Assembly (NCBI GenBank): GCA_029880285.1
Contig: JAOUOS010000016.1
Location: 1 to 64,000 of the forward strand
Reading direction: 5' to 3'
DNA: 64,000 nucleotides
Origin: Spirochaetia bacterium
Lineage (GTDB): Bacteria; Spirochaetota; Leptospiria; Turneriellales; JAOUOS01
The notes below the pieces were generated by a model that did not search any database, was not told the origin of the DNA, and saw nothing but the letters and a program-made list of their open reading frames with translations. Below, in pieces: positions 21,254 to 36,259 of this stretch. How positions within the stretch are numbered: position 1 is the first letter of the stretch; every line of letters begins with the position of its first letter. The position numbers and the translations under genes are program-made.

Positions 21254-22858
21254 TCATATTGTAGGCAAACCAAGCTCTTTTAAAAACTTATTATGCTTCT
21301 TTGTTGATTCTACAATTTTCTTTTCAATCTCAACCAGATTGGTATTGACCTCTTTTAGATCGATTTCTTTTTCGGGTTCGGCTGTGCTGATATAGCGCGA
21401 GATATTTAAGTTATATTCATTTTTTTCGATTTCTGTCATAGAAACCCGCCGAGAGTAGCGAGACTCTTCTTTGCGGTATTTGTATGTATTGATAATTTTG
21501 TCAATGTGTTCGCTTGTCAGCTGGTTTTGGCGTTTGCCTTTTTCATAATGTTCGGCGGCGTTAATAAAAAGTACGTCATCGGGTTTTTTACAGTTTTTCA
21601 AAACAAGTATGCTAACAGGTATACCCGTCGAAAAAAACAGGTTAGCAGGCAAACCAATTACCGTATCAATATTGCCGTCTTTTAAAAGCTTCTCGCGAAT
21701 GCGCGCTTCGACGCCGCCGCGAAACAAAACCCCGTGGGGCAGAATAATGGCCATCGTGCCTTCTTTAGATAAAAAATGAAAACCGTGTAAAAGAAAGGCG
21801 AAATCGGCGGCAGATTTAGGCGCCAGCCCGTAATTATTAAATCGAAAATCTTCGCCTAAAGAATCGGTCGGCTCCCAGCGGTAACTGAAAGGCGGGTTAG
21901 CGACCACCGCGTCAAAAAGAATTTTTTTCGCGGGGTTCATCTCGTTTAAAATGGGCCAGTCGTTTGTAAGAGTATCGCCGTGAAAAATTTCAAATTCAGA
22001 ATCTTTAACGCCATGCAAAAGCATGTTCATGCGCGCGAGGTTAAAGGTCGTGATATTTTTTTCTTGCCCGAAAATTTTACCGATACCGTCGGGGCCCATG
22101 ATGCGGCGAACATTTAAAAGTAACGAACCCGAACCGCAGGCAAAATCGAGAACCTTGTTTAGTTTAGGTCTTTTACCCAAAGAGGGGTCTTGACCGTCAA
22201 GGGTTACAATCTCAGAAAGAATGGTTGATATTTGCTGGGGCGTATAAAACTCGCCTGCTTTTTTACCCGAGCCCGCGGCAAACTGGCCAATCAGATACTC
22301 ATAGGCGTCGCCTAAGGTATCGGCATCGGTAGAAAACTCTGAGATTTTTTCGGCAATGGTTTGTATAATATTGCATAGTTTTTTATTTCGCTCGGTATAG
22401 TTTTTACCCAGCTTTTCAGAAGCCAGATTGATTTCAGAAAACAATCCCTGAAAGCTACTTTCAAAAGAGTGGTTTTCAATATATTTAAAACCGGCTTCAA
22501 GGGTATGCAATAACTCTTCATGCTGGGTGCGGGCCATCTCGGCAATACTGGCCCACAGGTATTGCGGTTCTATTACATAATGAACCTTGCGCCGCATCTG
22601 CTTTTCAAACTCGGCGGTATCTTTTTTATTTTTTTCGTACCAGAGCCAAAGAGGCGAACGTTTGTCGTCTTTCTCTGTTTTTGGATAATCGCTGCCCAGC
22701 TCTTTTTTTGACGAGGTTTCGTAGTTGTCAGAAAGATATTTTAAAAATAAAAAAGAGAGCATATAATCGCGAAAGTCGTCGGCGTTCATTGCGCCTCGAA
22801 GCTGGTCGGCAATGCCCCAGAGTGTTTTGCCTAATTGATTTCGTTCTAGTTGTGTCAT
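21254..22858 (-). CDS. hsdM: Type I restriction-modification DNA methyltransferase subunit M
   Basis: N6-adenine methyltransferase subunit of a type I system. The N-terminal HsdM helical domain reads LGKTLWGIADQLRGAMNADD. SAM motif I is VLDFACGSGSLLL, catalytic motif IV is VVANPPFSYRW, and AGEFYTPQQIS leads into the Rossmann domain. Length (534 aa) is normal. Last of the four hsd-linked genes on the minus strand, six bases after the DUF1016 gene. Confidence 0.96.
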   Translation of the reverse strand: MTQLERNQLGKTLWGIADQLRGAMNADDFRDYMLSFLFLKYLSDNYETSSKKELGSDYPKTEKDDKRSPLWLWYEKNKKDTAEFEKQMRRKVHYVIEPQYLWASIAEMARTQHEELLHTLEAGFKYIENHSFESSFQGLFSEINLASEKLGKNYTERNKKLCNIIQTIAEKISEFSTDADTLGDAYEYLIGQFAAGSGKKAGEFYTPQQISTILSEIVTLDGQDPSLGKRPKLNKVLDFACGSGSLLLNVRRIMGPDGIGKIFGQEKNITTFNLARMNMLLHGVKDSEFEIFHGDTLTNDWPILNEMNPAKKILFDAVVANPPFSYRWEPTDSLGEDFRFNNYGLAPKSAADFAFLLHGFHFLSKEGTMAIILPHGVLFRGGVEARIREKLLKDGNIDTVIGLPANLFFSTGIPVSILVLKNCKKPDDVLFINAAEHYEKGKRQNQLTSEHIDKIINTYKYRKEESRYSRRVSMTEIEKNEYNLNISRYISTAEPEKEIDLKEVNTNLVEIEKKIVESTKKHNKFLKELGLPTI

Positions 22859-22864
22859 GATGCT

Positions 22865-23896
22865 CTACTTCTCATTTGTTTCCTCATTCAATTTATGTTG
22901 TTGTGAAATAATTCTTTTTTCCCGCTCGATTTCTTCCATTAACTCTTTCTCTGTAGGCAATATCTTTTGATACTTGGAGGCAAAAAGCTGTTGATTCTCT
23001 TTGAGAACGGAATATTTCACAATCGTTTCATCTTTGCTGTCGCACAAAATAATACCAATGGTTGGATTATCGCCCTCGCCGCGCTTTAAATCATCGAACA
23101 TACGTACATACATATCCATCTGTCCAATGTCCTGATGGGTAAGCTTGCCGGTTTTCAGATCAATGATCACAAAGCACTTCAACAAGTAGTTATAAAACAC
23201 CAGATCAATATAAAAATGGTTGGTTTCGGTACTGATGCGCATTTGTCTGGCGACAAAAGAAAATCCTTTGCCCATCTCCAAAAGAAATTTTTGCAGCTCG
23301 TCAACAATAGCCTGCTCTAGTATACTCTCTTTTAAGGGCTCATTATCAGAAAGCTGTAAAAATTCAAGCACATAGGGATCTTTCAAAAATTCGAGATGAT
23401 CGCTGCCCTCTGGTTTGCTTTGTTCGGTTTGTGATTCTTGCTGCGAAGATAACAAGCGCTGGTAAGCGAGGCTTTTTATATTTCGCTCTAACAATCTCAC
23501 GCTCCAATGCTGGGCAGCGCATTCGCGCAGGTAGTACTCTCGCGCGCTGATGTCTTCGACGCGCATGATTAAACGGTTATGGCTCCAGCTTAATTTGCTA
23601 CACAGTGTGTAGCAAATCTTTTGTTCAGGGTATGTCAGATAAAACTGGCGAAAGTTGCGCAAATTGGCATAAGAAAAGCCCCTGCCAAAAAAAGTTGAAA
23701 GCTCTTTTGAGAGATTTTCAAGCAGGCGCTCGCCATATTTTGCCCGGTTCTCGCCCTGTTGTTCTTCTTTGACAATACGCCTGCCAACGAGCCAATAGGC
23801 CTCGACCATCGCAGAGTGAATCGCCAGGCGCGCTTTACCCCGGGCTTGTTCGAGTATCTCTTTAATGTCATCATATATGGCCGAAGTTTCGCTCAT
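22865..23896 (-). CDS. DUF1016 (YhcG-type) PD-(D/E)XK nuclease inside the hsd operon
   Basis: The N-terminal helical DUF1016 domain shows AYWLVGRRIVKEEQQG, FSYANLRNFRQFY and LSWSHNRLIMRVED. The C-terminal PD-(D/E)XK nuclease domain has FYIDLVFYNYLLKCFVIIDL followed by KTGKLTHQDIGQMDMYVRMF, with the Asp and the D-x-K pair. Length (343 aa) is typical. Its ATG overlaps the hsdS stop by four bases (ATGA), so it is translated as part of the restriction operon. Its role may be an accessory nuclease or an independent defence gene. Confidence 0.93.
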   Translation of the reverse strand: MSETSAIYDDIKEILEQARGKARLAIHSAMVEAYWLVGRRIVKEEQQGENRAKYGERLLENLSKELSTFFGRGFSYANLRNFRQFYLTYPEQKICYTLCSKLSWSHNRLIMRVEDISAREYYLRECAAQHWSVRLLERNIKSLAYQRLLSSQQESQTEQSKPEGSDHLEFLKDPYVLEFLQLSDNEPLKESILEQAIVDELQKFLLEMGKGFSFVARQMRISTETNHFYIDLVFYNYLLKCFVIIDLKTGKLTHQDIGQMDMYVRMFDDLKRGEGDNPTIGIILCDSKDETIVKYSVLKENQQLFASKYQKILPTEKELMEEIEREKRIISQQHKLNEETNEK

Positions 23897-25239
23897 ACAC
23901 CCACCCCCACACTCGCAGGAAACAGCCCCTGCATCAGCCCTTTTTTTTGCAGTTTAAGAGCTTCAATCTTCTGGCTTTGCGCCATGATCAGTTCGTCGAG
24001 AGAGCCGAGGCAATCGGCGATTTTTTGTTGTTCTAATTTGTCCTGTGGCAAGATTATAGTATAGTCATTTATCTGTTTTGCACTTATATGCGGTATCCCA
24101 GAACTGGTGTTAATCCGATCAACATATTTGTGAAACATGACTGAATTTATTATTTGAAAAATAAATTTTATTGTTGAATTACAGTCTGCTCTTAAGCGAG
24201 CTACTCGCTGAACCAAAAAAGAGCTATCATCTTTTTTTGTAATTAATGCAGAGTTTTTACCAACCTTAGACCCATCCATACCAATAACCAAATCATCGAT
24301 TTTAATCTTATATTTTTCTAAACCCTCTATATTGCCATGGTAGTATCTATCAATAGTAATATTATGACGAATTTTTCCCTCAGTAATATTTATACCCCTT
24401 AGCAATCTATTTTTTGCTGGTTTTTCAGAAATTTCAATACCTTTAAATGGAAAACCTGATAAAATATCTACTTTTTCCCCCAACTGTTTCTCCTCCCACG
24501 CCCCTTCAAACCCCCTAAACCTGAGTCGCGGCACCCGTTCCCCTCCTTTGGAGGGGTGCCTCGCAGAGGCGGGGTGGTCTGGGTGGCCCGCAGGGTCGGG
24601 GTGGTCTATATCCGCCGGAAACAGCTGCTGCATCAGACCTTTTTTATGTGTCTTAAGCGCGTCGAGCTTTTGAATTTGGGCGGCAATAACATCGTCGAGA
24701 GATGTGAGGCAGTCGGCGATTTTGGTTTGTTCTTCTGGCTTTGGTGGTATTGTAATAAAAAGTGTTTCAAGTTGAGACTTGTAGAGGTGAACAACGCTAT
24801 CACCTTGAGCCAATTTTGCTATCGCATATTTTTTCACACTATTTAACTGGTAACTAAGAAAAATCCCATTTAAATGTGACCGAATTACGTTTAAATCGCC
24901 GCCCAATGCTATATTATCTTCAGTAACACAGGCAGCCGTTGCAATGTCGATCTTTGTTTCACCGGAGGCCGGTATAATTACATCATTTTTTTTACTAAGA
25001 AACAATTCAGATTTTGGTAATGATGTTTTCGATTTCACATTCCTAATGACTTGGCCATATAATGTATAAAGCTCACCATAGCGAATACATGGCTGATTAC
25101 CATCTTCAGAAATATCAGATTTTGAAATCCCTTTACCTTTATAGAGTTCAGCTATTTGTTTGGTTTCGCTTTCCTCCCACTCCCCATCAAACTCCGGAAA
25201 CCGGTACCGAGGTATAAGCCCTTTTGTTTTACTGCTCAT
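23893..25239 (-). CDS. hsdS: Type I restriction specificity subunit S with repeat insertion in the linker
   Basis: Two target-recognition domains are each followed by a conserved helix: KIADCLTSLDDVIAAQIQKL and KIADCLGSLDELIMAQSQKI, each ending KKGLMQxLFPA. The second half opens with VPRLRFRGFEGAWEEKQLGE. Between LFPA and VPRLRF is an extra ~24-residue stretch rich in His, Pro and Asp (~residues 210-235) encoded by a GC-rich palindromic repeat. The frame is intact. Start ATG 25239 lies inside the end of hsdR (11-base overlap). Confidence 0.94.
   Translation of the reverse strand: MSSKTKGLIPRYRFPEFDGEWEESETKQIAELYKGKGISKSDISEDGNQPCIRYGELYTLYGQVIRNVKSKTSLPKSELFLSKKNDVIIPASGETKIDIATAACVTEDNIALGGDLNVIRSHLNGIFLSYQLNSVKKYAIAKLAQGDSVVHLYKSQLETLFITIPPKPEEQTKIADCLTSLDDVIAAQIQKLDALKTHKKGLMQQLFPADIDHPDPAGHPDHPASARHPSKGGERVPRLRFRGFEGAWEEKQLGEKVDILSGFPFKGIEISEKPAKNRLLRGINITEGKIRHNITIDRYYHGNIEGLEKYKIKIDDLVIGMDGSKVGKNSALITKKDDSSFLVQRVARLRADCNSTIKFIFQIINSVMFHKYVDRINTSSGIPHISAKQINDYTIILPQDKLEQQKIADCLGSLDELIMAQSQKIEALKLQKKGLMQGLFPASVGVGV
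24537..24607. repeat. GC-rich palindromic repeat inserted in frame in hsdS
   Basis: Contains CCCCTCC-TTT-GGAGGGG (24540-24556), CCTC-GCA-GAGG and two copies of CGGGGTGGTCT, in sharp base-composition contrast to the AT-rich flanks. About 71 bases, matching the extra residues of the HsdS linker and leaving both flanking family motifs in frame. Confidence 0.75.
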
Positions 25240-28192
25240 AGGCCTTCAATCCTGAAATTTCTTTGCCCTGCGCGATTTTATGAAGTATCGGAATTAGTTC
25301 TTTCATTAAAGCCAGTTCTTTATGGCTGCGGTCTTTCCATCCCAGTTTCAGCGGCGCAAGCAGGTCGCCCAGTTTTTCGCCGTCAAAGATCATACGGTCA
25401 ATGATTATATGCACAAAGCCATGAAGAGCGCCAATCGCAATTTCGTGTTTTTTCGCGATATTGGCCAGCTCGTCGGCAAATTTATTTTTCTTAAAGGTTT
25501 CATAACCCTCGCGAATTTCTTTTTCGTTAAGTGTTACCCCCGTTTTCAGGGTATCAATATAGGCGGTAATCTCTTCGCGCTCGCCAATAAACTTCGCGTC
25601 AGACTCAATAAGGGCAATAAGCTGCGCGCGGGTCATTTTCTGCTTTTCGGGCTTTTCAGAGGTATAGCTTGCAATAAGCTTCATGATGTAGTCATAATCA
25701 ATAATCGCAGAGGCAAAAAGTACAAACTCAAAATCAATCTGCGCCGCCATGCCCGGTTTATCTGCCCCGCCTTGTTCATCTTTCATTCTTTGGGCAGTGT
25801 CAAGGTAAACGCCTCGAAAAGACCTCATGGTATCTTCGGGAATGATTTTATCAATCTCTTCTTTATTTTCTGGGGTTAAATCGGTATACTGGTCAAGCTG
25901 GGTTTTAAGCTGTTGTACTTCTTTAAAAATTTTCACGAACTGCCCGCGGGCGTCGTCGCCTTTTAAATTGGCCACCTCTTCGGGGGCCGTTTTTAGCCCG
26001 TGGGCCTGCATGAATTTATCGAGGGATAAAAGCGCTTTTGAGAGTTTATCAATTACCACAGGCGCCGCATCGACCAGCCATACTGTTTTTGCCTTTTCAC
26101 CCTTTTCGCCAGAAAAAAGCGAGATGGCCGCATCAACCTCTTTTTGCTGGTTGCGAAAATCAAGAATGTTGCCATAGGGTTTGGTGCGGTTTAAAATACG
26201 GTTGGTACGCGAAAAGGCCTGAATTAAACCATGGTGTTTAAGGTTTTTATCGACATAAAGAGTATTTAGATATTTTGAATCAAAGCCGGTCAAGAGCATA
26301 TCGACTACAATCACCAGATCAATTTTTTCTTCATGGGGCAGATCGCGGTTGGGGTATTGCTGATCTTTGATGCGTTTTTGAATATCCTGATAATAAAGAT
26401 CAAAGTTGTTGATATCGTGGTTGGTTTTGTAGCGCTCATTATAGTTTTTAATAATCGCCTTAAGGGCCGCCTTTTTTTTATCGGGTTCTTCGGCGTTGTC
26501 TTCTTTTTCTTGCGGCAGGTCTTCTTGAAGCTGACGTACATCCTGATTGCCATCGGCAGGCGGCGAGAACACACAGGCTATGTTTATAGGGGCGAAATCT
26601 GCGTTTTCTTTCTGGCGGATGGATTGAATTTCGTAAAACAAGCGGTGATATTCTATGGCATTGTTAATTGAGGCTGTCGCTAAAATGGCGTTGAATTTTC
26701 GAAAACCGGTCGCGTTTTCGTGTTTTTCGAGAATTGCCTCTACGACCGCTTTTTGCGAGAGCGTATCACCGGGGTTCACTTTGGCTTCGCCGTCGCCTTT
26801 AAAATAATCGACATGAAAACGCAGAACATTTTCATCTTCAATAGCGTGGGTTATTGTGTAAGCGTGCAGCTGTTTTTGAAAAATATCTTCGGTTGTTTTA
26901 TAGGTACGGCTTTCGCCTTCGGTTTGCGTGTATGCCGCGTTTTGTTCAAAAATGGGCGTGCCTGTAAAACCAAACAACTGGGCCTTAGGAAAAAATTCTT
27001 TAATGGCTTTATGGTTTTCGCCGAATTGAGAACGATGGCACTCATCAAAAATAAAAACGAACCGTTTACCGCTTAAAATACTTAAGCGGTCTTTGTAATT
27101 TCTCTGGCTTGTGCCATCGAGCGCAAGACCAAGTTTCTGAATAGTGGTTACAATCACTTTATCGGCCTTATCTTCTGAGAGCATTCTTCTGACCAGAGCT
27201 TCGGTATTGGTGTTTTGTTCGACACAGCCTTCTTGAAACCTGTTGAACTCTTCTCTGGTCTGGCGGTCGAGGTCTTTGCGGTCAACCACAAACAGACATT
27301 TTTGAATATCTTCGTTATCTTTTAAAAGCGTAGAAGCCTTAAATGAAGTCAGGGTTTTACCGCTGCCGGTAGTGTGCCATATGTAACCGTTGCCCCGGTT
27401 TTGATGTATGCAATCTACAATGGCCTTTACGGCATATATCTGGTATGGTCTCATAATCATGAGCTTTTGCTCGCTGGCGACAAGAACCATGTAGCGGCTT
27501 ATCATCTCGCCTAAAGTACATTTTGCCAGAAAGTTTTCAGAAAAGTCGTCAAGGTGAACAATCTTTGAGTTATCTTCGGCCGCGTATTGATAAACGGGCA
27601 AAAAACGCTCGTCGGCTTCAAAACTGAAATGACGTTTGTGGTTGTTGGCGAAATAGTATGTATTTGAACGATTGCTTACAATAAAAATCTGCATAAAGCA
27701 AAGAAGCGTATTGGTATAACCGTTGCCGGGGTCGTTTTTATACTCGACAATTTGCTGCATGGCTTTATGTGAACTTATCTCAAGTGATTTAAGCTCTATC
27801 TGCACAACGGGAACGCCGTTTATAAGTAAAATAACATCATACCGATGAAAGCTTGATTCGGTATTTATGCGAAGCTGGTTTATGACTTCAAAAGAATTCT
27901 TACACCAGTCTTTTGTGTTGACCAGAGTATAATGAAGAGGTGTGCCGTCTTCACGGTCAAAGGTATTCCACTCGCGAAGCCTTTTGGCGGCGTCAAAAAC
28001 ATCGGCGCTTACAATTTGATCTCTTAGCCGGGCAAACTCAGAATCAGAAAGATTTACTTTATTGAGTTCTTCAAATTTTTCACGAAAGTTTTTTTCAAGA
28101 GCCGCCCTGTCGCGAATATCGTCGCGATAAGTATATTTCAGATCAGTTAACTTATCTATAAGGCTTTTTTCTATCTTGCTTTCGGTTGTCAT
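25229..28192 (-). CDS. hsdR: Type I restriction subunit R (endonuclease and translocase)
   Basis: The start is set at ATG 28192 (MTTESKIEKSLIDKL), the usual HsdR beginning, rather than the in-frame ATG 28243. The N-terminal PD-(D/E)XK nuclease has HRYDVILLINGVPVVQIELK. SF2 motor motifs follow: Walker A IWHTTGSGKTLTS, DECHRSQ, FGFTGTP, and motif VI AFSRTNRILNRTKPYG. The C-terminal HsdM-interacting helical part is present, giving 987 aa. First gene of the operon. No frameshift is visible, so the system looks complete. Confidence 0.96.
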   Translation of the reverse strand: MTTESKIEKSLIDKLTDLKYTYRDDIRDRAALEKNFREKFEELNKVNLSDSEFARLRDQIVSADVFDAAKRLREWNTFDREDGTPLHYTLVNTKDWCKNSFEVINQLRINTESSFHRYDVILLINGVPVVQIELKSLEISSHKAMQQIVEYKNDPGNGYTNTLLCFMQIFIVSNRSNTYYFANNHKRHFSFEADERFLPVYQYAAEDNSKIVHLDDFSENFLAKCTLGEMISRYMVLVASEQKLMIMRPYQIYAVKAIVDCIHQNRGNGYIWHTTGSGKTLTSFKASTLLKDNEDIQKCLFVVDRKDLDRQTREEFNRFQEGCVEQNTNTEALVRRMLSEDKADKVIVTTIQKLGLALDGTSQRNYKDRLSILSGKRFVFIFDECHRSQFGENHKAIKEFFPKAQLFGFTGTPIFEQNAAYTQTEGESRTYKTTEDIFQKQLHAYTITHAIEDENVLRFHVDYFKGDGEAKVNPGDTLSQKAVVEAILEKHENATGFRKFNAILATASINNAIEYHRLFYEIQSIRQKENADFAPINIACVFSPPADGNQDVRQLQEDLPQEKEDNAEEPDKKKAALKAIIKNYNERYKTNHDINNFDLYYQDIQKRIKDQQYPNRDLPHEEKIDLVIVVDMLLTGFDSKYLNTLYVDKNLKHHGLIQAFSRTNRILNRTKPYGNILDFRNQQKEVDAAISLFSGEKGEKAKTVWLVDAAPVVIDKLSKALLSLDKFMQAHGLKTAPEEVANLKGDDARGQFVKIFKEVQQLKTQLDQYTDLTPENKEEIDKIIPEDTMRSFRGVYLDTAQRMKDEQGGADKPGMAAQIDFEFVLFASAIIDYDYIMKLIASYTSEKPEKQKMTRAQLIALIESDAKFIGEREEITAYIDTLKTGVTLNEKEIREGYETFKKNKFADELANIAKKHEIAIGALHGFVHIIIDRMIFDGEKLGDLLAPLKLGWKDRSHKELALMKELIPILHKIAQGKEISGLKAYEQ

Positions 28193-28327
28193 ATCGTTTA
28201 TCAAGAGACAATTTACTATTTTAGCATAATTGGTAAAGAACATTCAAGACCAGTTGAGCTTGTTCGCGCATTTTACCTCCCGCGAAAACGGTTTCATGGT
28301 TTTATTATACTAAAATGGGAATAATTT

Positions 28328-30182: not shown

Positions 30183-30512
30183 TTATAATATTAGAATACT
30201 AGAATCTGTATCTTCAATAAAATTTTTTATTGTTTCGATTTTTTTATTAATTAATATTATCATCTCATTTGTACTGCAATTGCCGGTTGTAATCCAGATA
30301 ATTTTAGGCGGAAAACCATACAATAAACTTTTATGATGAAAATCTGAATCTTTACTTATAATAGCATATTGATGTTGTTTTGCATAATCCCATATTATCT
30401 TATCATCAACATTTTGAAGATTTATATCTCTTACATGAGTTATTTCTTTGAATATTTTAGAAAGAGGCTCTTTGATTCTTATTGATATATTTTCATCAAT
30501 GAGTATTTTCAT
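30183..30512 (-). CDS. DUF5615 PIN-like toxin
   Basis: PIN-like RNase family protein starting at ATG 30512 (MKILIDENISIRIKEPLSK), where ILIDEN holds the first acidic residue. IIWDYAKQHQYAIISKDSDF gives the second acidic cluster, and PPKIIWITTGNCSTNEM is the usual later block. 109 aa. Its ATG overlaps the DUF433 stop by four bases, as in toxin-antitoxin pairs. An in-frame upstream start at 30560 would lie within the antitoxin gene and is rejected. Confidence 0.88.
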   Translation of the reverse strand: MKILIDENISIRIKEPLSKIFKEITHVRDINLQNVDDKIIWDYAKQHQYAIISKDSDFHHKSLLYGFPPKIIWITTGNCSTNEMIILINKKIETIKNFIEDTDSSILIL

Positions 30513-30730
30513 ATATTCGCGTATATCTTTCTTTCTCTGTCTGCCGCGAAAGATAAGCACGCTCTGATATCGTTTTCATTTAAATCAGGAAAGTCATCTA
30601 AAATTTCTTCTATACTCATGCCAGAAGCCATATAATCTAAAATATTAGATACAGTAATTCTTAAACCTCTTATACAGGGTTTACCGCCCATTTTTCCCGG
30701 TTCAATGGTTATTATGTCATGATAATCCAT
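30509..30730 (-). CDS. DUF433 antitoxin
   Basis: 73-residue DUF433 protein: ITIEPGKMGGKPCIRGLRIT, then VSNILDYMASGMSIEEILDD and FPDLNENDIRACLSFAADRE. The family is a small winged-helix antitoxin paired with DUF5615 PIN-like toxins. First gene of the pair, with coupled translation through ATGA. Confidence 0.92.
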   Translation of the reverse strand: MDYHDIITIEPGKMGGKPCIRGLRITVSNILDYMASGMSIEEILDDFPDLNENDIRACLSFAADRERKIYANI

Positions 30731-30807: not shown

Positions 30808-31077
30808 TTGCTCAAAAATAATTTGAAAGAAATAATGATTTTTGGCGTTAAAAATATTGGTATATTTGGCAGTGCATCTAGAAACGAGGCTGAGGAAAAT
30901 AGTGATCTTGATATTCTGGTAGAATATGAAACAGGCCGATTGAATTTAGATACATACATGGATTTAAAATACTATCTAGAAAACTTATTTAAGTGCAGGG
31001 TTGATCTTGTAACAAAATCAAGCATAAAGAAACATTCAAAAGAAAATATCTTAAAAGAAGTTATTTATGCCGCGTAA
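30808..31077 (+). CDS. MNT-type nucleotidyltransferase antitoxin (MntA)
   Basis: Minimal nucleotidyltransferase with GIFGSASRNEAEENSDLDIL, the GSx(10)DxD catalytic motif. Paired HEPN toxins are silenced by adding AMP to a Tyr. The start is TTG 30808; the internal ATG at 30838 would leave too little before the motif. The 3' end overlaps the HEPN gene by 11 bases. The catalytic residues look intact although the partner toxin is broken. Confidence 0.88.
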   Translation: MLKNNLKEIMIFGVKNIGIFGSASRNEAEENSDLDILVEYETGRLNLDTYMDLKYYLENLFKCRVDLVTKSSIKKHSKENILKEVIYAA

Positions 31078-31408
31078 TGTTGCTCTTTATTTAGAAGACA
31101 TATTAATATCTATTGAAGAGATACAAACTTTCGCCTTAAATTTGAATAATCAAAATGAATTTTCATCGAATATAGAAAAAAAACGTGCGGTTGAAAGAAA
31201 TTTAGAGATTATAGGCGAGGCAATTAAAAAAATTCCTAAAAATTTATTAGACTTAAGAAGCGAAATAGAATGGCGAAAAATTACCGGCTAAAGGGATATT
31301 CTCGCGCATGGCTATTTTACTATTGATGATGAAGTCTTATGGGATGTTGTTCAAAATCGCTTAGAGCCTTTAAGAAAAGCAATCTTATTCATTAAATCAA
31401 AACTATAA
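31067..31408 (+). pseudogene. HEPN (DUF86) toxin interrupted by a nonsense codon
   Basis: The reading frame matches HEPN/DUF86 toxins from LYLEDILISIEEIQTFAL through ERNLEIIGEAIKKIP and EWRKITG. It then meets TAA at 31289-31291 and continues in the same frame as RDILAHGYFTIDDEVLWDVV to a natural stop at 31406-31408. Restoring one codon gives 113 residues, a normal length. The RNase motif RxxxxH (RDILAH) and the AMP-acceptor Tyr lie after the stop, so the short product would be inactive. Confidence 0.88.
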
Positions 31409-31432
31409 ACATAAAAAATATTCTTTAGGATG

Positions 31433-31466
31433 CAAAACGACATATTCGTGTCGCTTTGTTTTTTTC
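31433..31466 (+). terminator. Terminator after the MNT/HEPN pair
   Basis: Stem CAAAACGACA (31433-31442) with TGTCGCTTTG (31449-31458), one mismatch, loop TATTCG, followed by a T-run. It lies 24 bases after the HEPN stop. Confidence 0.75.
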
Positions 31467-31603
31467 TTCGTTTGTATATTCGTTAATGTCAATTTAGAGC
31501 CCAATAGGTATAGATTTTCTTTAGGTATACTGTATTGCCGAAAGAAAATAATTGGTCTCGAATTTGTATTGACTTTATAAAATGTTATAAAAAAGGGGGT
31601 AAT

Positions 31604-34360
31604 ATGAAAATAGATGGAAAAAAGCTTATCTTTGGCAGAGTAGGCTGGGCGAAATATTATGGTCTAAAAGGTATAGAAAGACCTATAGGCGGGGGCCGCT
31701 TTAACAAAGAAAACATAGGCTCAGAACATCAAAATTTTGCTCGTCATGAAAATGGTAATTGCTATGGCTACATAAGAACACAAAGTTATTCCCGCGGATT
31801 TGATATGAAATTGTTTGATGATAAGCCAAAAAAACAAATGGATGGCTTTACTGTAATTTTATTTTCAAATAATCCGTATAGAGGCAAACTATACGTAATA
31901 GGCTGGTACAAAAATGCTTCTATTTTGAAAAAACAACAAAAGCGTCCAGCTCCCTTAGATGATTATTATAATTTTTATGCTAATGAAGAGTCCTGTATAC
32001 TAATTCCTCAAGATAATCGAATTTATCAAATTACTAATGAACTACATGGTATATCAGTCAGTTCTAATATGGCGTACTCTGTGAATAAAGGTGAATTAAA
32101 GCCAAATAAAGGCATACCTGAAGTTATAAAATATGTAGAAAACTATACTGGTCAAAACTGGATTGAAGATTCTACGGAGAAAAAGCATTTCTATTTCTCA
32201 GGCCGAAAATTTCAGGCCGAAGATGACAAAATTATTTATAGACAAGCCGAAATACCTTTTTCTCCCAAGCCTGCTAAAGCTATAAGCTATCTTACTGATC
32301 AGAATACAAAGGTCTATTTTGATAATAATAGTCATATAACTCTGGTAGATGGTTTTAAGAAACTTCTTTCTGATGCAAAACTTAAAAGAGTAAGTCTTCT
32401 CGTTTTTAATATCAATCAGCATTTTTTTAAGATGACAGAATTTCATACATTGTTTGAATCAGAAAACAGAGTAGACTGCAGAATTCTAATAGCACCGCCT
32501 GCAGGTACAACAAGAAAATTTGCCGAAACACTTTTCAATTGGCATAACGATAAAAAATTAGAGGCCAGACAATTCAAAAGAAATATGTATGAACCATATT
32601 TAATGCATACAAAACTAGCTATTTTTGAAATGGAAGACCAAAATTACTTTGCCTCTGTCGGTTCTTCTAATTTCACTCTGGGAGGCACTGTAAATAATAT
32701 CGAATACAATGTGTTTTTCAATGTCAAAGAACATGCAATTGGTAAAAATAGTCCTTTGGAATATTTTAATACTTTTTGGCAGCAGGCTGATGAATTGAAT
32801 CCAACGGATTTTGATGATGCGCCATCAACAACAATTCCCACTGAAGAATTTGCTTCTGAACCAGCAGTAACCGTAGCTGAACCAGAGATTCTAAGCAAAA
32901 AATTGTTTAATTATCAAATAACAGCTATTGAAAATTTAAGTGAAAAAATCAATCCTTTACTGAGAACAAAAGCGCAAAAAGGCGGTCCCGAAAACAGCGG
33001 GTGTTTTCTAATTATGCCTACCGGTTCGGGTAAAACCTATACAATGGTTAAATGGTTGTTTGATAACGTTTTCAATAATGATGGTAAAAATAAAAAAGTT
33101 CTCTGGCTGGCGCACAGAAAAGAACTTCTTAATCAGGCGTATGATACTGCTTATATTCAAAAACTTTTAACAGATAATGAAATAACGATAAATAATGTGC
33201 ATCAAATGGTAAGTTCGGGTATCTATTTCGAAAAATATTTTGAAGATAATTTGATCTTCCTGACATCACAAACAGCATATAGAAAATATTGCGCAAATCT
33301 TCATAAAAAATCCAGAAAGAAACTAAAAGTCGCAGAAAAAAAAGAAATAGAAAGAATAAGAGATGAAATGTTGCAAATAAGAGAGTCAACAAAATTTGAC
33401 TTGATCATTATTGATGAAGCACACCGGGCAAGTTCAGAGACACTTCAATATGGCAATATTCTTAAAAATCTTTATTATAAAGCTGTTTGCGGAATAACCG
33501 CAACTCCCTATCGGGGAGATCAACAAGATGAAACTCTTCAGAGCAAATTTAAGAATTCGGTACAGACAAATATTGAAGATATTAAAAAAGATCAAATGGA
33601 TTTGTTCTCAGAATTACAAATTTTCAATATTTCGACGGGCTTTACTTTGAAAATTGACGGAGAAAATAATCTAAGATTTAACAATAGTCTAATATCCGCA
33701 AAAAATAATAAGAAACGCAACCAGATAATTGTAGATGAGTATTTTTTGCACTCATCTAAATTTAATCAGGCAATAATATTCTGTATAGACTGCGAACATG
33801 CGAATGAAATCGCAAGAATGATTAACGAAAGATTGAATGAAGCTCAGACCTTTCATAATGGTATTATTGACGAACAGAGCTGGGCTAAGAGAGTAAAGAA
33901 TGATTTATTTATAGATGAGAATCAAAAATCTATTGAGCCTGTTAGAAACGAAGTAATTGATATGTTTCGTTCAGGAAAAATAAAAACCCTAACATCTGTC
34001 TTCCTTCTAACTGAAGGTTTTGATGTACCCAATGTAGACGCAATATTTATTACAAGACCCACATTAAGTACTCTGCTTTATACTCAAATGCTTGGCAGAG
34101 GCATGCGAGGTCCTGCTGTTGGCGGTACAAAATCTTGTTTGGTATTTGACTTTGAAGATCAGTTGGAATATCATACAAAGACTCATAAAAGATTGATTAA
34201 TATGTCTTCACTAAAGCCAAAACAAAAATCTGTTCATGGCGCAGATATTTTAGCGATAGAAACTGAAAGTCTATTAAATATAAAAGAAATCAATGATCTT
34301 GATATGGAAAGAGACAGTCTGTTGAATATAGACACGAAACCAAAGCAGGAAGAAGAATAA
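31604..34360 (+). CDS. PLD nuclease-SF2 helicase fusion with possible DNA-reader head
   Basis: Start ATG 31604 follows AAAAGGGGGT; an in-frame TTG at 31535 is rejected. Three parts are visible. (1) ~1-200: an unassigned head with IFGRVGWAKYYG, GGGRFNKENIGSEHQNF and KLYVIGWYKNASI; the GWYKNA-type motif recalls N-terminal domains of HNH and other modification-dependent endonucleases. (2) ~250-420: a phospholipase-D-type nuclease with one HxK motif (MHTKLAIF, His ~335) and VGSSNFT (~352). (3) ~440-900: an SF2 helicase with PTGSGKT (~472), IIDEAHRAS (~603), CGITATPYRG and QMLGRGMRG. It is 918 aa and lies 3 bases from the DUF2779 gene. Confidence 0.85.
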   Translation: MKIDGKKLIFGRVGWAKYYGLKGIERPIGGGRFNKENIGSEHQNFARHENGNCYGYIRTQSYSRGFDMKLFDDKPKKQMDGFTVILFSNNPYRGKLYVIGWYKNASILKKQQKRPAPLDDYYNFYANEESCILIPQDNRIYQITNELHGISVSSNMAYSVNKGELKPNKGIPEVIKYVENYTGQNWIEDSTEKKHFYFSGRKFQAEDDKIIYRQAEIPFSPKPAKAISYLTDQNTKVYFDNNSHITLVDGFKKLLSDAKLKRVSLLVFNINQHFFKMTEFHTLFESENRVDCRILIAPPAGTTRKFAETLFNWHNDKKLEARQFKRNMYEPYLMHTKLAIFEMEDQNYFASVGSSNFTLGGTVNNIEYNVFFNVKEHAIGKNSPLEYFNTFWQQADELNPTDFDDAPSTTIPTEEFASEPAVTVAEPEILSKKLFNYQITAIENLSEKINPLLRTKAQKGGPENSGCFLIMPTGSGKTYTMVKWLFDNVFNNDGKNKKVLWLAHRKELLNQAYDTAYIQKLLTDNEITINNVHQMVSSGIYFEKYFEDNLIFLTSQTAYRKYCANLHKKSRKKLKVAEKKEIERIRDEMLQIRESTKFDLIIIDEAHRASSETLQYGNILKNLYYKAVCGITATPYRGDQQDETLQSKFKNSVQTNIEDIKKDQMDLFSELQIFNISTGFTLKIDGENNLRFNNSLISAKNNKKRNQIIVDEYFLHSSKFNQAIIFCIDCEHANEIARMINERLNEAQTFHNGIIDEQSWAKRVKNDLFIDENQKSIEPVRNEVIDMFRSGKIKTLTSVFLLTEGFDVPNVDAIFITRPTLSTLLYTQMLGRGMRGPAVGGTKSCLVFDFEDQLEYHTKTHKRLINMSSLKPKQKSVHGADILAIETESLLNIKEINDLDMERDSLLNIDTKPKQEEE

Positions 34361-34363
34361 TAC

Positions 34364-36259
34364 ATGTACACACTTTCAGACACAGATAAAGAAAACATCC
34401 GCAAGAAATATTATATCTCTAAATCAGATTACAAGCTTGCACGCGGCTGCCCTGTAAAGCTTTACTACAAGAAAAAAGATTATCCTTCGGCAGCGGGCGA
34501 CGATGATTACATGAAGCTTCTTGCCGATTGCGGATATATTGTAGGCAAGATGGCCCAGCTTTATTACGATGAAGGCAGCGAAATAAACACGGGCGGCGAT
34601 CTTGTCGCAGGTGCCGAAGAAACCATCCGTCTGCTTGAAAAAGAAAAGGTAACTTTGTTTGAGCCGGTTTTGTACTGGAGCAATACGTTAATCAGAGCCG
34701 ATGTTTTTGTTAAAAATAAAGATAGCATAGATATTATTGAAGTTAAGTCAAAAGGCTTTAAAAGCGAAATCGCAGAAAATGGAAACTTTATCATTGATAA
34801 ATCAATGTTCCGCAAAGCAAGGGGTGGGTTTGATTTGGGCTGGCTGGAATATCTCTTAGATATCGCTTACCAAACTTATGTGGTAAAACAAATCTTTCCC
34901 GATTTTCGTGTGCGTTCATTTTTAATGATGCCCGATAAGGCAAAAACAACTTTGCTAGATTCTCTGGTTTCTCTTTTTCCTATGACAAAAACCCCCTCGC
35001 CTTCGGGCAAACATACACAAATTGAAGTTGAATTTAAGGGCAATCAGAAAGATATTCAAAAAGACAATCTTTTAACGCTCGTAAATGTTACCGATGAGGC
35101 GGCTGAGCTTGAAAATACGGTTAATGATGAGCTTTTCAAGTTTCAAGAAATTGTGCGAAACGGTTTTAAAAAACTACCAGTAGAAAAAGGAAAAATCTGT
35201 AAAAAATGCGAGTATGCTGTAACAGATTCTTCAGCATTAAACGGATATAAAGAATGCTGGGGTATCAAGCCTGTTTCAGATAAAGGCATAGCGAAAGAAC
35301 ATATTTTTGATCTTTATCAGGCGGGCAGAATAAAAACAGAAAACGGATTTTTAATTGAAGAATTACTAAGGCAGGGCAAAGAAACCATTTATGATGTGCC
35401 TGAAAAATATTTTAAAGGTAAATACGGCGAAAGACAAAAAGTACAGATAGAATATACCCGAAAAAATCAGGAATGGTTTTCTAATGAACTTAGGGGTATA
35501 ATTGACTCATGGGATTATCCGTTACAGTTTATTGATTTTGAGACCTCGCGCATTGCCGTGCCATACCATAAAGGTATGAACCCGTATGAGAACATTGCTT
35601 TTCAATACAGCCTGCATAGCATTGAAAAACCGGGTGCCTCTCTTGTGCACAAAGAGTGGATAAACATTGAAGATAGTTATCCTAATTTTAAGTTCGCTGA
35701 ATCGTTAAAAAATAATTTGAATGAAAAGGGTACCATTTTCATGTGGGCGACCCATGAAAACACGGTACTTCGTGATGTTTACAATCAAATGGAAAAGTAC
35801 AATACCAAAAATAAAGATTTAAACCAATGGCTTTACCAAATTGTAAAATTCGATTCTGAAGATACCGGCAAACTGGTTGACATGAACAAGCTTTGTCGTG
35901 AGCATTATTTTCATCCGGCTATGGGCGGACGTACATCACTAAAAGTTGTTCTGCCTGCCATATGGAACAACAGTTCTAAACTTCATAAATTAGACTGGTT
36001 TAGGTCTTACTATAAAAGTGAAAATGGCAGGGTTATGAACCCCTATGATACGCTTGAAAAAATTCAAATTTATGAAGAATACGAAGTTGTCAACGAAGGC
36101 GGCGGAGCCATGATGGCCTATCAAGAAATGATGTACGGCCAAAGCTCTAACGATAAAAAACAAAAAGACGCCTGGAAAGAGCTGCTATTACAATACTGTA
36201 AATTAGATACTATCGCTATGATAATTGTTTATAAACACTGGCTCGATAACGCGCCTTAA
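34364..36259 (+). CDS. Cas4-like nuclease fused to DUF2779 exonuclease
   Basis: The N-terminal half resembles a Cas4/RecB-type nuclease: an early Cys in YKLARGCPVKLYY (~29), catalytic Asp and IIEVKSKG (Glu126, Lys128), and late cysteines in GKICKKCEYA and KECWG, together a plausible 4Fe-4S set. The C-terminal half is DUF2779: LQFIDFETSRIAVPYHKG and FQYSLH, with DFET as the first acidic motif of an RNase-H-fold 3'-5' exonuclease, then FMWATHENTVLRDV. 631 aa. Only three bases after the helicase stop, so the two are translated together. Confidence 0.85.
   Translation: MYTLSDTDKENIRKKYYISKSDYKLARGCPVKLYYKKKDYPSAAGDDDYMKLLADCGYIVGKMAQLYYDEGSEINTGGDLVAGAEETIRLLEKEKVTLFEPVLYWSNTLIRADVFVKNKDSIDIIEVKSKGFKSEIAENGNFIIDKSMFRKARGGFDLGWLEYLLDIAYQTYVVKQIFPDFRVRSFLMMPDKAKTTLLDSLVSLFPMTKTPSPSGKHTQIEVEFKGNQKDIQKDNLLTLVNVTDEAAELENTVNDELFKFQEIVRNGFKKLPVEKGKICKKCEYAVTDSSALNGYKECWGIKPVSDKGIAKEHIFDLYQAGRIKTENGFLIEELLRQGKETIYDVPEKYFKGKYGERQKVQIEYTRKNQEWFSNELRGIIDSWDYPLQFIDFETSRIAVPYHKGMNPYENIAFQYSLHSIEKPGASLVHKEWINIEDSYPNFKFAESLKNNLNEKGTIFMWATHENTVLRDVYNQMEKYNTKNKDLNQWLYQIVKFDSEDTGKLVDMNKLCREHYFHPAMGGRTSLKVVLPAIWNNSSKLHKLDWFRSYYKSENGRVMNPYDTLEKIQIYEEYEVVNEGGGAMMAYQEMMYGQSSNDKKQKDAWKELLLQYCKLDTIAMIIVYKHWLDNAP

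Follow-up and report, generated by a model that had tools for sequence, protein, structure and literature searches.

Two adjacent genes of a Spirochaetia bacterium, termed A and B here, raise the question of whether they constitute a new two-gene defence system. They are located in contig JAOUOS010000016.1 within the window (the whole stretch of DNA analysed, 64,000 nucleotides), and the first-pass annotation had proposed that their products, a PLD-helicase and a double nuclease, act together. The most fitting view of genes A and B is that of an uncommon variant of the known restriction enzymes with an accessory nuclease next to it; a new two-gene immune system is not proven.

Gene A: an HKD nuclease and SF2 motor with an N-terminal head

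Gene A is composed of the following parts:
31604..34360, + strand: gene A in full, 918 aa, a predicted ATP-dependent restriction enzyme resembling SauUSI
31604..32170, + strand: head (residues ~1-189), unnamed, predicted target-reading domain
32369..32731, + strand: HKD/PLD nuclease (residues 256-376) with H335 and K337
32897..34108, + strand: SF2 helicase/translocase (residues 432-835)

The ORF of gene A starts with the TTG at 31535 and comprises 941 aa. The ATG at 31604, which yields 918 aa, is the better start, because the purine-rich sequence AAAAAAGGGGGTAAT is located upstream of it and the relatives of the head start at the same place. The gene is terminated by a TAA that ends at 34360. 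PLDc_2 matches residues 256-376 with 2.3e-7, which is above the Pfam cut-off, and RE_NgoFVII matches the HKD/PLD region with 8e-5. In a motif scan, a single HKD site (H335-T-K337) and a GSSN at 353 were found. The helicase is recognised by ResIII/DEAD (432-637, 1.3e-25) and Helicase_C (712-835, 2.8e-9), and SWI2_SNF2 also matched. According to the motif scan, all SF2 motifs are intact: GSGKT at 474, DEAH at 604, TAT, TEGFD at 803 and QMLGRGMR at 828. Gene A ends ~60 residues past the helicase. The original description of a 918-aa protein joining a head, a single-HKD PLD nuclease and an SF2 DEAH helicase holds for the ORF, its coordinates and its domains.

Among the PADLOC models, PbeA is the best match of gene A (7.7e-22), and mREase_IV was found as well (6.5e-19); both matches are partial. 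The best PDB match is the SauUSI structure 7clg (1.8e-14), in the helicase only. Residues 1 to ~240 have no match in Pfam, NCBIfam or PADLOC. An N-terminal head on an HKD nuclease and an SF2 helicase is an unusual arrangement, and none like gene A was found among the other loci examined.

Gene B: a long-form DUF2779 protein with two predicted nuclease halves

Gene B encodes two predicted nucleases in one polypeptide:
34364..36259, + strand: gene B in full, 631 aa, a long-form DUF2779 protein with two nucleases
34448..35257, + strand: Cas4-type Fe-S PD-(D/E)XK half with C29, D113, E126-V-K128, Q170, C279, C282 and C298
35528..36208, + strand: DUF2779 DEDDy-type exonuclease half with D391, E393, D506, Y611 and D615

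DUF2779 has been assigned to the 3'-5' exonucleases (RNase H-like clade F.17), and proteins that combine it with a DUF83/Cas4-like part are on record (PMC3985635). In comparison with this family, gene B has both halves with intact catalytic residues. The DUF2779 model (PF11074) matches residues 389-525 with 4.9e-27 (95.1 bits vs. a cut-off of 23.3) and DFET is located at 391, which bears out the exonuclease named in the first-pass annotation. Its second call for gene B, a Cas4-like EVK nuclease with four candidate Fe-S cysteines, gained support from an alignment of eight long forms (gene B and seven relatives): C29, D113, E126, K128, Q170, C279, C282 and C298 are invariant. The same applies to the exonuclease residues D391, E393, D506 and D615.

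In gene B itself, the Cas4-like half is not detected by any Pfam, NCBIfam or PADLOC model, and in the long-form relatives Pfam detects DUF2779 alone. Profile-profile comparison (hhalign) of the N-terminal half with spirochaete Cas4 yielded a probability of 0.9%. In seven short-form DUF2779 proteins, Cas4 models match the N-terminal ~230 residues with 4.3e-8 to 9e-5, and these short forms align with gene B. A fold search with gene B gave no match at E<=0.001. Weak matches were obtained with Cas4 7mi5_A (E 0.03, prob 0.99) and, over the same half, with MGME1, while the exonuclease half weakly matched 3'hExo 4l8r (E 0.011) and also ERI2. Weak as they are, these matches fall into the two nuclease classes expected for gene B. 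Relatives of the long form, 28-37% identical to gene B, are present in Spirochaetota (eight more) and elsewhere. The long form (~630-720 aa) shares just 21-28% identity with the usual DUF2779 form of ~500 aa. For neither form was a functional test found in the literature searched. Since the DUF2779 double nuclease is widespread and occurs among plasmid and defence genes, it merits testing with or without gene A.

The defence island

Genes A and B lie in a defence island of restriction-modification and toxin-antitoxin genes that is bounded by aspS and mpl-like/suf genes. The features of this context outside the A-B module are:
21254..28243, - strand: type I restriction-modification operon hsdM - YhcG/PDC-S02 - hsdS - hsdR
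30183-30730, - strand: DUF433/DUF5615 (PIN-like) toxin-antitoxin pair (profile matches)
30808-31411, + strand: MNT/HEPN pair (profile matches and motif scan)
31438..31453, + strand: terminator-like hairpin in the gap that separates gene A from the MNT/HEPN locus, a weak signal (5 sites in the region vs. 3.0 expected)

The G+C content of the type I operon is 42% compared to 34.5% for the window, which suggests a recent arrival. Its gene between hsdM and hsdS encodes a YhcG/DUF1016 nuclease (PADLOC PDC-S02, 1.1e-139). The HEPN frame is interrupted by a TAA at 31289-31291, immediately ahead of the catalytic RxxxxH motif (WRKITG*RDILAHGYF), and the locus is therefore probably broken. The HEPN toxin is probably inactive; the antitoxin-type MNT gene is intact. 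Of the island reported before, with type I restriction and two toxin-antitoxin loci, the genes were recovered by profiles, but one of the two toxin-antitoxin loci, MNT/HEPN, is probably no longer functional. Only short, imperfect repeats that could mark an inserted unit flank genes A and B.

Do genes A and B belong together?

Genes A and B are spaced like an operon. They are on the same strand, and between the TAA of gene A that ends at 34360 and the ATG of gene B at 34364 there are 3 nt, exactly as first noted. At the junction, no terminator-like site was found on the + strand. When these two genes are compared, their G+C content differs (32.9% in gene A vs. 37.7% in gene B).

Conservation does not support the proposal that the two act together as a new system. 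For long-form B, the surroundings of 16 loci were inspected, eight of them in other Spirochaetota genomes, six on viral contigs and two on plasmids. Outside the source genome, an A-like neighbour was present in 0 of these 16 loci. Three of them (L047, L122 and L214) offer little sequence or stop close to gene B, and two (L012 and L217) are broken copies. As L216 and L217 have an identical gene order, the 16 loci are not all independent. Cooperation between A and B may, in view of the 0/16, not exist. Gene A with its head is likewise missing in the eight other spirochaete genomes that have long-form B. The relatives of long-form B are mostly solo with changing neighbours, and two of them follow sbcD-sbcC-like genes. 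On the viral contigs L216 and L217 (3321-9992), long-form DUF2779 is located directly after genes whose N-termini suggest sbcD and sbcC.

On the side of gene A, only the C-terminal part of the closest relative is available, at the beginning of a contig of genome G041; its identity to gene A is 40-45%. Within 4.3 kb downstream of it there is no gene B, and no DUF2779 match was found anywhere in this genome, which is 78% complete. A scan of 84,980 genomes did not reveal a second full-length gene A; it was performed with two short peptide patterns only, so that the rarity of gene A is not proven by it. In viral contigs, relatives were found by alignment-based scans, whereas single-sequence peptide scans with A or B found none, as the peptides are probably not conserved. 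Thus, the homologues of long-form B mostly occur apart from gene A, and what is left of the co-occurrence on the A side is one fragment at a contig edge that lacks B.

Short-form DUF2779 genes were found near an HKD + SF2 module in three of the 26 loci viewed (L013, L064 and L131), each time with different partners. One of these settings is a plasmid of Planktothrix that carries a MutL-like relative of MzaB, another is a spirochaete in which an HKD+Snf2 protein (C3a139) occurs together with a type IIG-like methylase, and the third is a plasmid of Rhodoferax with the PDC-M27 pair. They might weakly hint at a loose functional link. On five plasmids (L126, L131, L125, L127 and L129), short DUF2779 recurs beside a WYL regulator and a large ATP-binding/AAA gene, the latter being IetA-like on two of them (L126 and L131). 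The hosts of this cluster are Diaphorobacter, Rhodoferax and Sphingobium; in Aliarcobacter and Helicobacter it is seen in part. It is possibly an unnamed defence operon.

The head, a mobile domain

Among 393 spirochaete genomes, two other relatives of the head were identified, a stand-alone 182-aa gene (L066) and one located before an HNH-like motif (L067); the profile search agrees. In plasmid records, head relatives carry the annotation HNH or DUF3883 protein. The head is also present on six viral contigs, and in five of them (L101-L105) NOV_C (DUF3883) comes next. In Natroniella acetigena (L071) the head and an SF2 helicase form a single fusion protein. In L134 the two are encoded by adjacent genes with overlapping ORFs. 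In both loci (L071, 9995-12976; L134, 7998-11191), the head and SF2 helicase are accompanied by a C-terminal zincin-like region, with a weak YgjP-like match in L071. The head-SF2 gene of L071 is part of a gene run that reads as a HerA-like ATPase and a protein kinase. The head of gene A is 22-35% identical to those of the head-HNH and head-NOV_C/DUF3883 proteins. Phage records did not contain phage-borne relatives.

Searches for a known fold or reader family did not give the head a name. The fold search against PDB and BFVD yielded no match at E<=0.001 (mean pLDDT of the model, 67.6). UHRF2-SRA entries appear in the list only at E 0.5-1.1 among noise and are not counted as evidence. Profiles of PUA-superfamily readers (SRA, EVE, YTH, ASCH) do not match the head. 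MTaX1 was considered as a name, but the literature search gave no descriptive paper. The first-pass annotation had left the head unassigned; this stands as far as library matches are concerned, but the head can now be placed by its recurrence on HNH and DUF3883 nucleases.

From its distribution in sequence records, the head is a mobile domain of HNH, DUF3883 and SF2-based proteins. Type IV enzymes are commonly built from reader domains on HNH, PD-(D/E)XK and PLD nucleases (PMC7641849). The habit of the head to join nucleases and SF2 helicases is typical of recognition parts in modification-dependent nucleases (PMC7641849). With a head that moves across nucleases, gene A looks like a SauUSI-type modification-dependent enzyme that carries its reader at the opposite end. 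The sharing of the head with HNH and DUF3883 nucleases is the best clue to the target choice of gene A, and it is plausible that the head reads modified DNA and has so far gone unrecognised in this role. Knowledge of its ligand would at the same time explain what several uncharacterised nucleases do. The head domain is a more useful lead than the claim of a two-gene system.

Proposed mechanism and alternative explanations

Gene A is most likely an ATP-dependent, modification-dependent (type IV) enzyme of the SauUSI kind with a changed order of parts. Its N-terminal head would bind a modified base or another DNA mark, whereupon the SF2 motor would translocate and the HKD nuclease would cut. In the HKD family, two subunits contribute to each active site, and gene A is accordingly expected to dimerise. 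Gene B, made from the same transcript, would serve as an accessory nuclease: its DEDD half could trim 3' ends and its Cas4-like Fe-S half could cut or trim single strands, by which breaks made by gene A would be converted into degraded DNA. That gene A restricts DNA with a mark read by its head and gene B from the same transcript degrades the products is a tentative reading, held with a little less than even confidence. What the sequence itself shows are the domains, the intact catalytic residues, the operon-like spacing, the island around the genes and the joining of the head to nucleases and SF2 helicases; the modified base, the dimer and the help from gene B are inferred. It is rather unlikely, though by no means remote, that A and B represent a real two-gene type IV-like system in which the head, as a DNA-mark reader of a new class, guides an HKD-SF2 translocase, and a double nuclease of its own (Cas4-DEDD) processes the breaks. 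If true, three nuclease chemistries would be united in one operon.

The chief alternative assumes that gene A restricts alone and that gene B is an independent DUF2779 gene from the mobile pool which landed behind it by chance. This is doubtful but has to be taken seriously: neither the 16 long-form B loci, two of them behind sbcD-sbcC-like genes, nor G041 with its gene A relative link the two genes, and their G+C contents differ. A chance landing is harder to reconcile with the 3-nt spacing on the same strand, a junction devoid of a + strand terminator-like site and the three DUF2779 genes near other HKD + SF2 modules.

Two further explanations concern the function of gene A itself. It is improbable that gene A is not a type IV enzyme, but reads unmodified sequence and is restrained by the methylase that the neighbouring hsdM encodes, as in NgoAVII/CglI or BREX-related HKD-helicase effectors. 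In several systems, an HKD + SF2 effector is indeed accompanied by a methylase (PMC7913695, PMC12839542), and hsdM is ~9 kb away from gene A. However, this hsdM is part of a complete type I operon that runs in the opposite direction and contains an hsdR and an hsdS of its own, and among the proteins scanned around A and B there is no other methylase, Z1, DUF499, MutL or PglZ. A role of A and B in DNA repair instead of defence, as a RadD-like helicase-nuclease and an end-resecting nuclease, is very improbable. The gene A helicase does match RadD (NCBIfam NF053632), with 90.6 bits far below the cut-off of 720, and long-form B follows sbcD-sbcC-like genes in L216/L217. Against repair argue the very patchy spread (head in 3/393 and long-form B in 9/393 spirochaete genomes), the defence island and the fusion of HKD and SF2, which is typical of restriction effectors.

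Comparison with known systems

No named system was found for the A-B pair, which the first-pass annotation had not recognised as one either. Neither gene matches a named system end to end: gene B has no PADLOC match, and that of gene A is partial only. HKD nucleases fused to SF2 helicases are a known kind of restriction effector (PMC7913695, PMC10853773, PMC12839542). SauUSI combines an HKD nuclease, an SF2 motor and an SRA reader, translocates and shreds DNA (PMC7913695). Gene A resembles SauUSI (type IV, mREase_IV) in that an HKD nuclease with the conserved HxK, an SF2 ATPase of the type I/III restriction class and a separate putative target-reading part are present in one polypeptide. It differs from SauUSI by a putative reader that is N-terminal and not detectably SRA, and by the second nuclease gene that follows. 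The coupler and the C-terminal SRA of SauUSI are absent from gene A, and the PADLOC match covers the 945-aa model only as far as position 581.

With PbeA of the PbeABCD/CxC ABC-ATPase systems (PMC6459918, PMC10853773), gene A shares HKD and SF2 in the same order, but has the extra head. PbeB, PbeC (CxC ABC-ATPase) and PbeD (DndE-like) had no match among the neighbour proteins scanned, a set that covered part of the small ORFs. The head-HNH and head-NOV_C/DUF3883 proteins, which are unnamed, have the head in common with gene A, whereas gene A joins it to an HKD nuclease and an SF2 motor.
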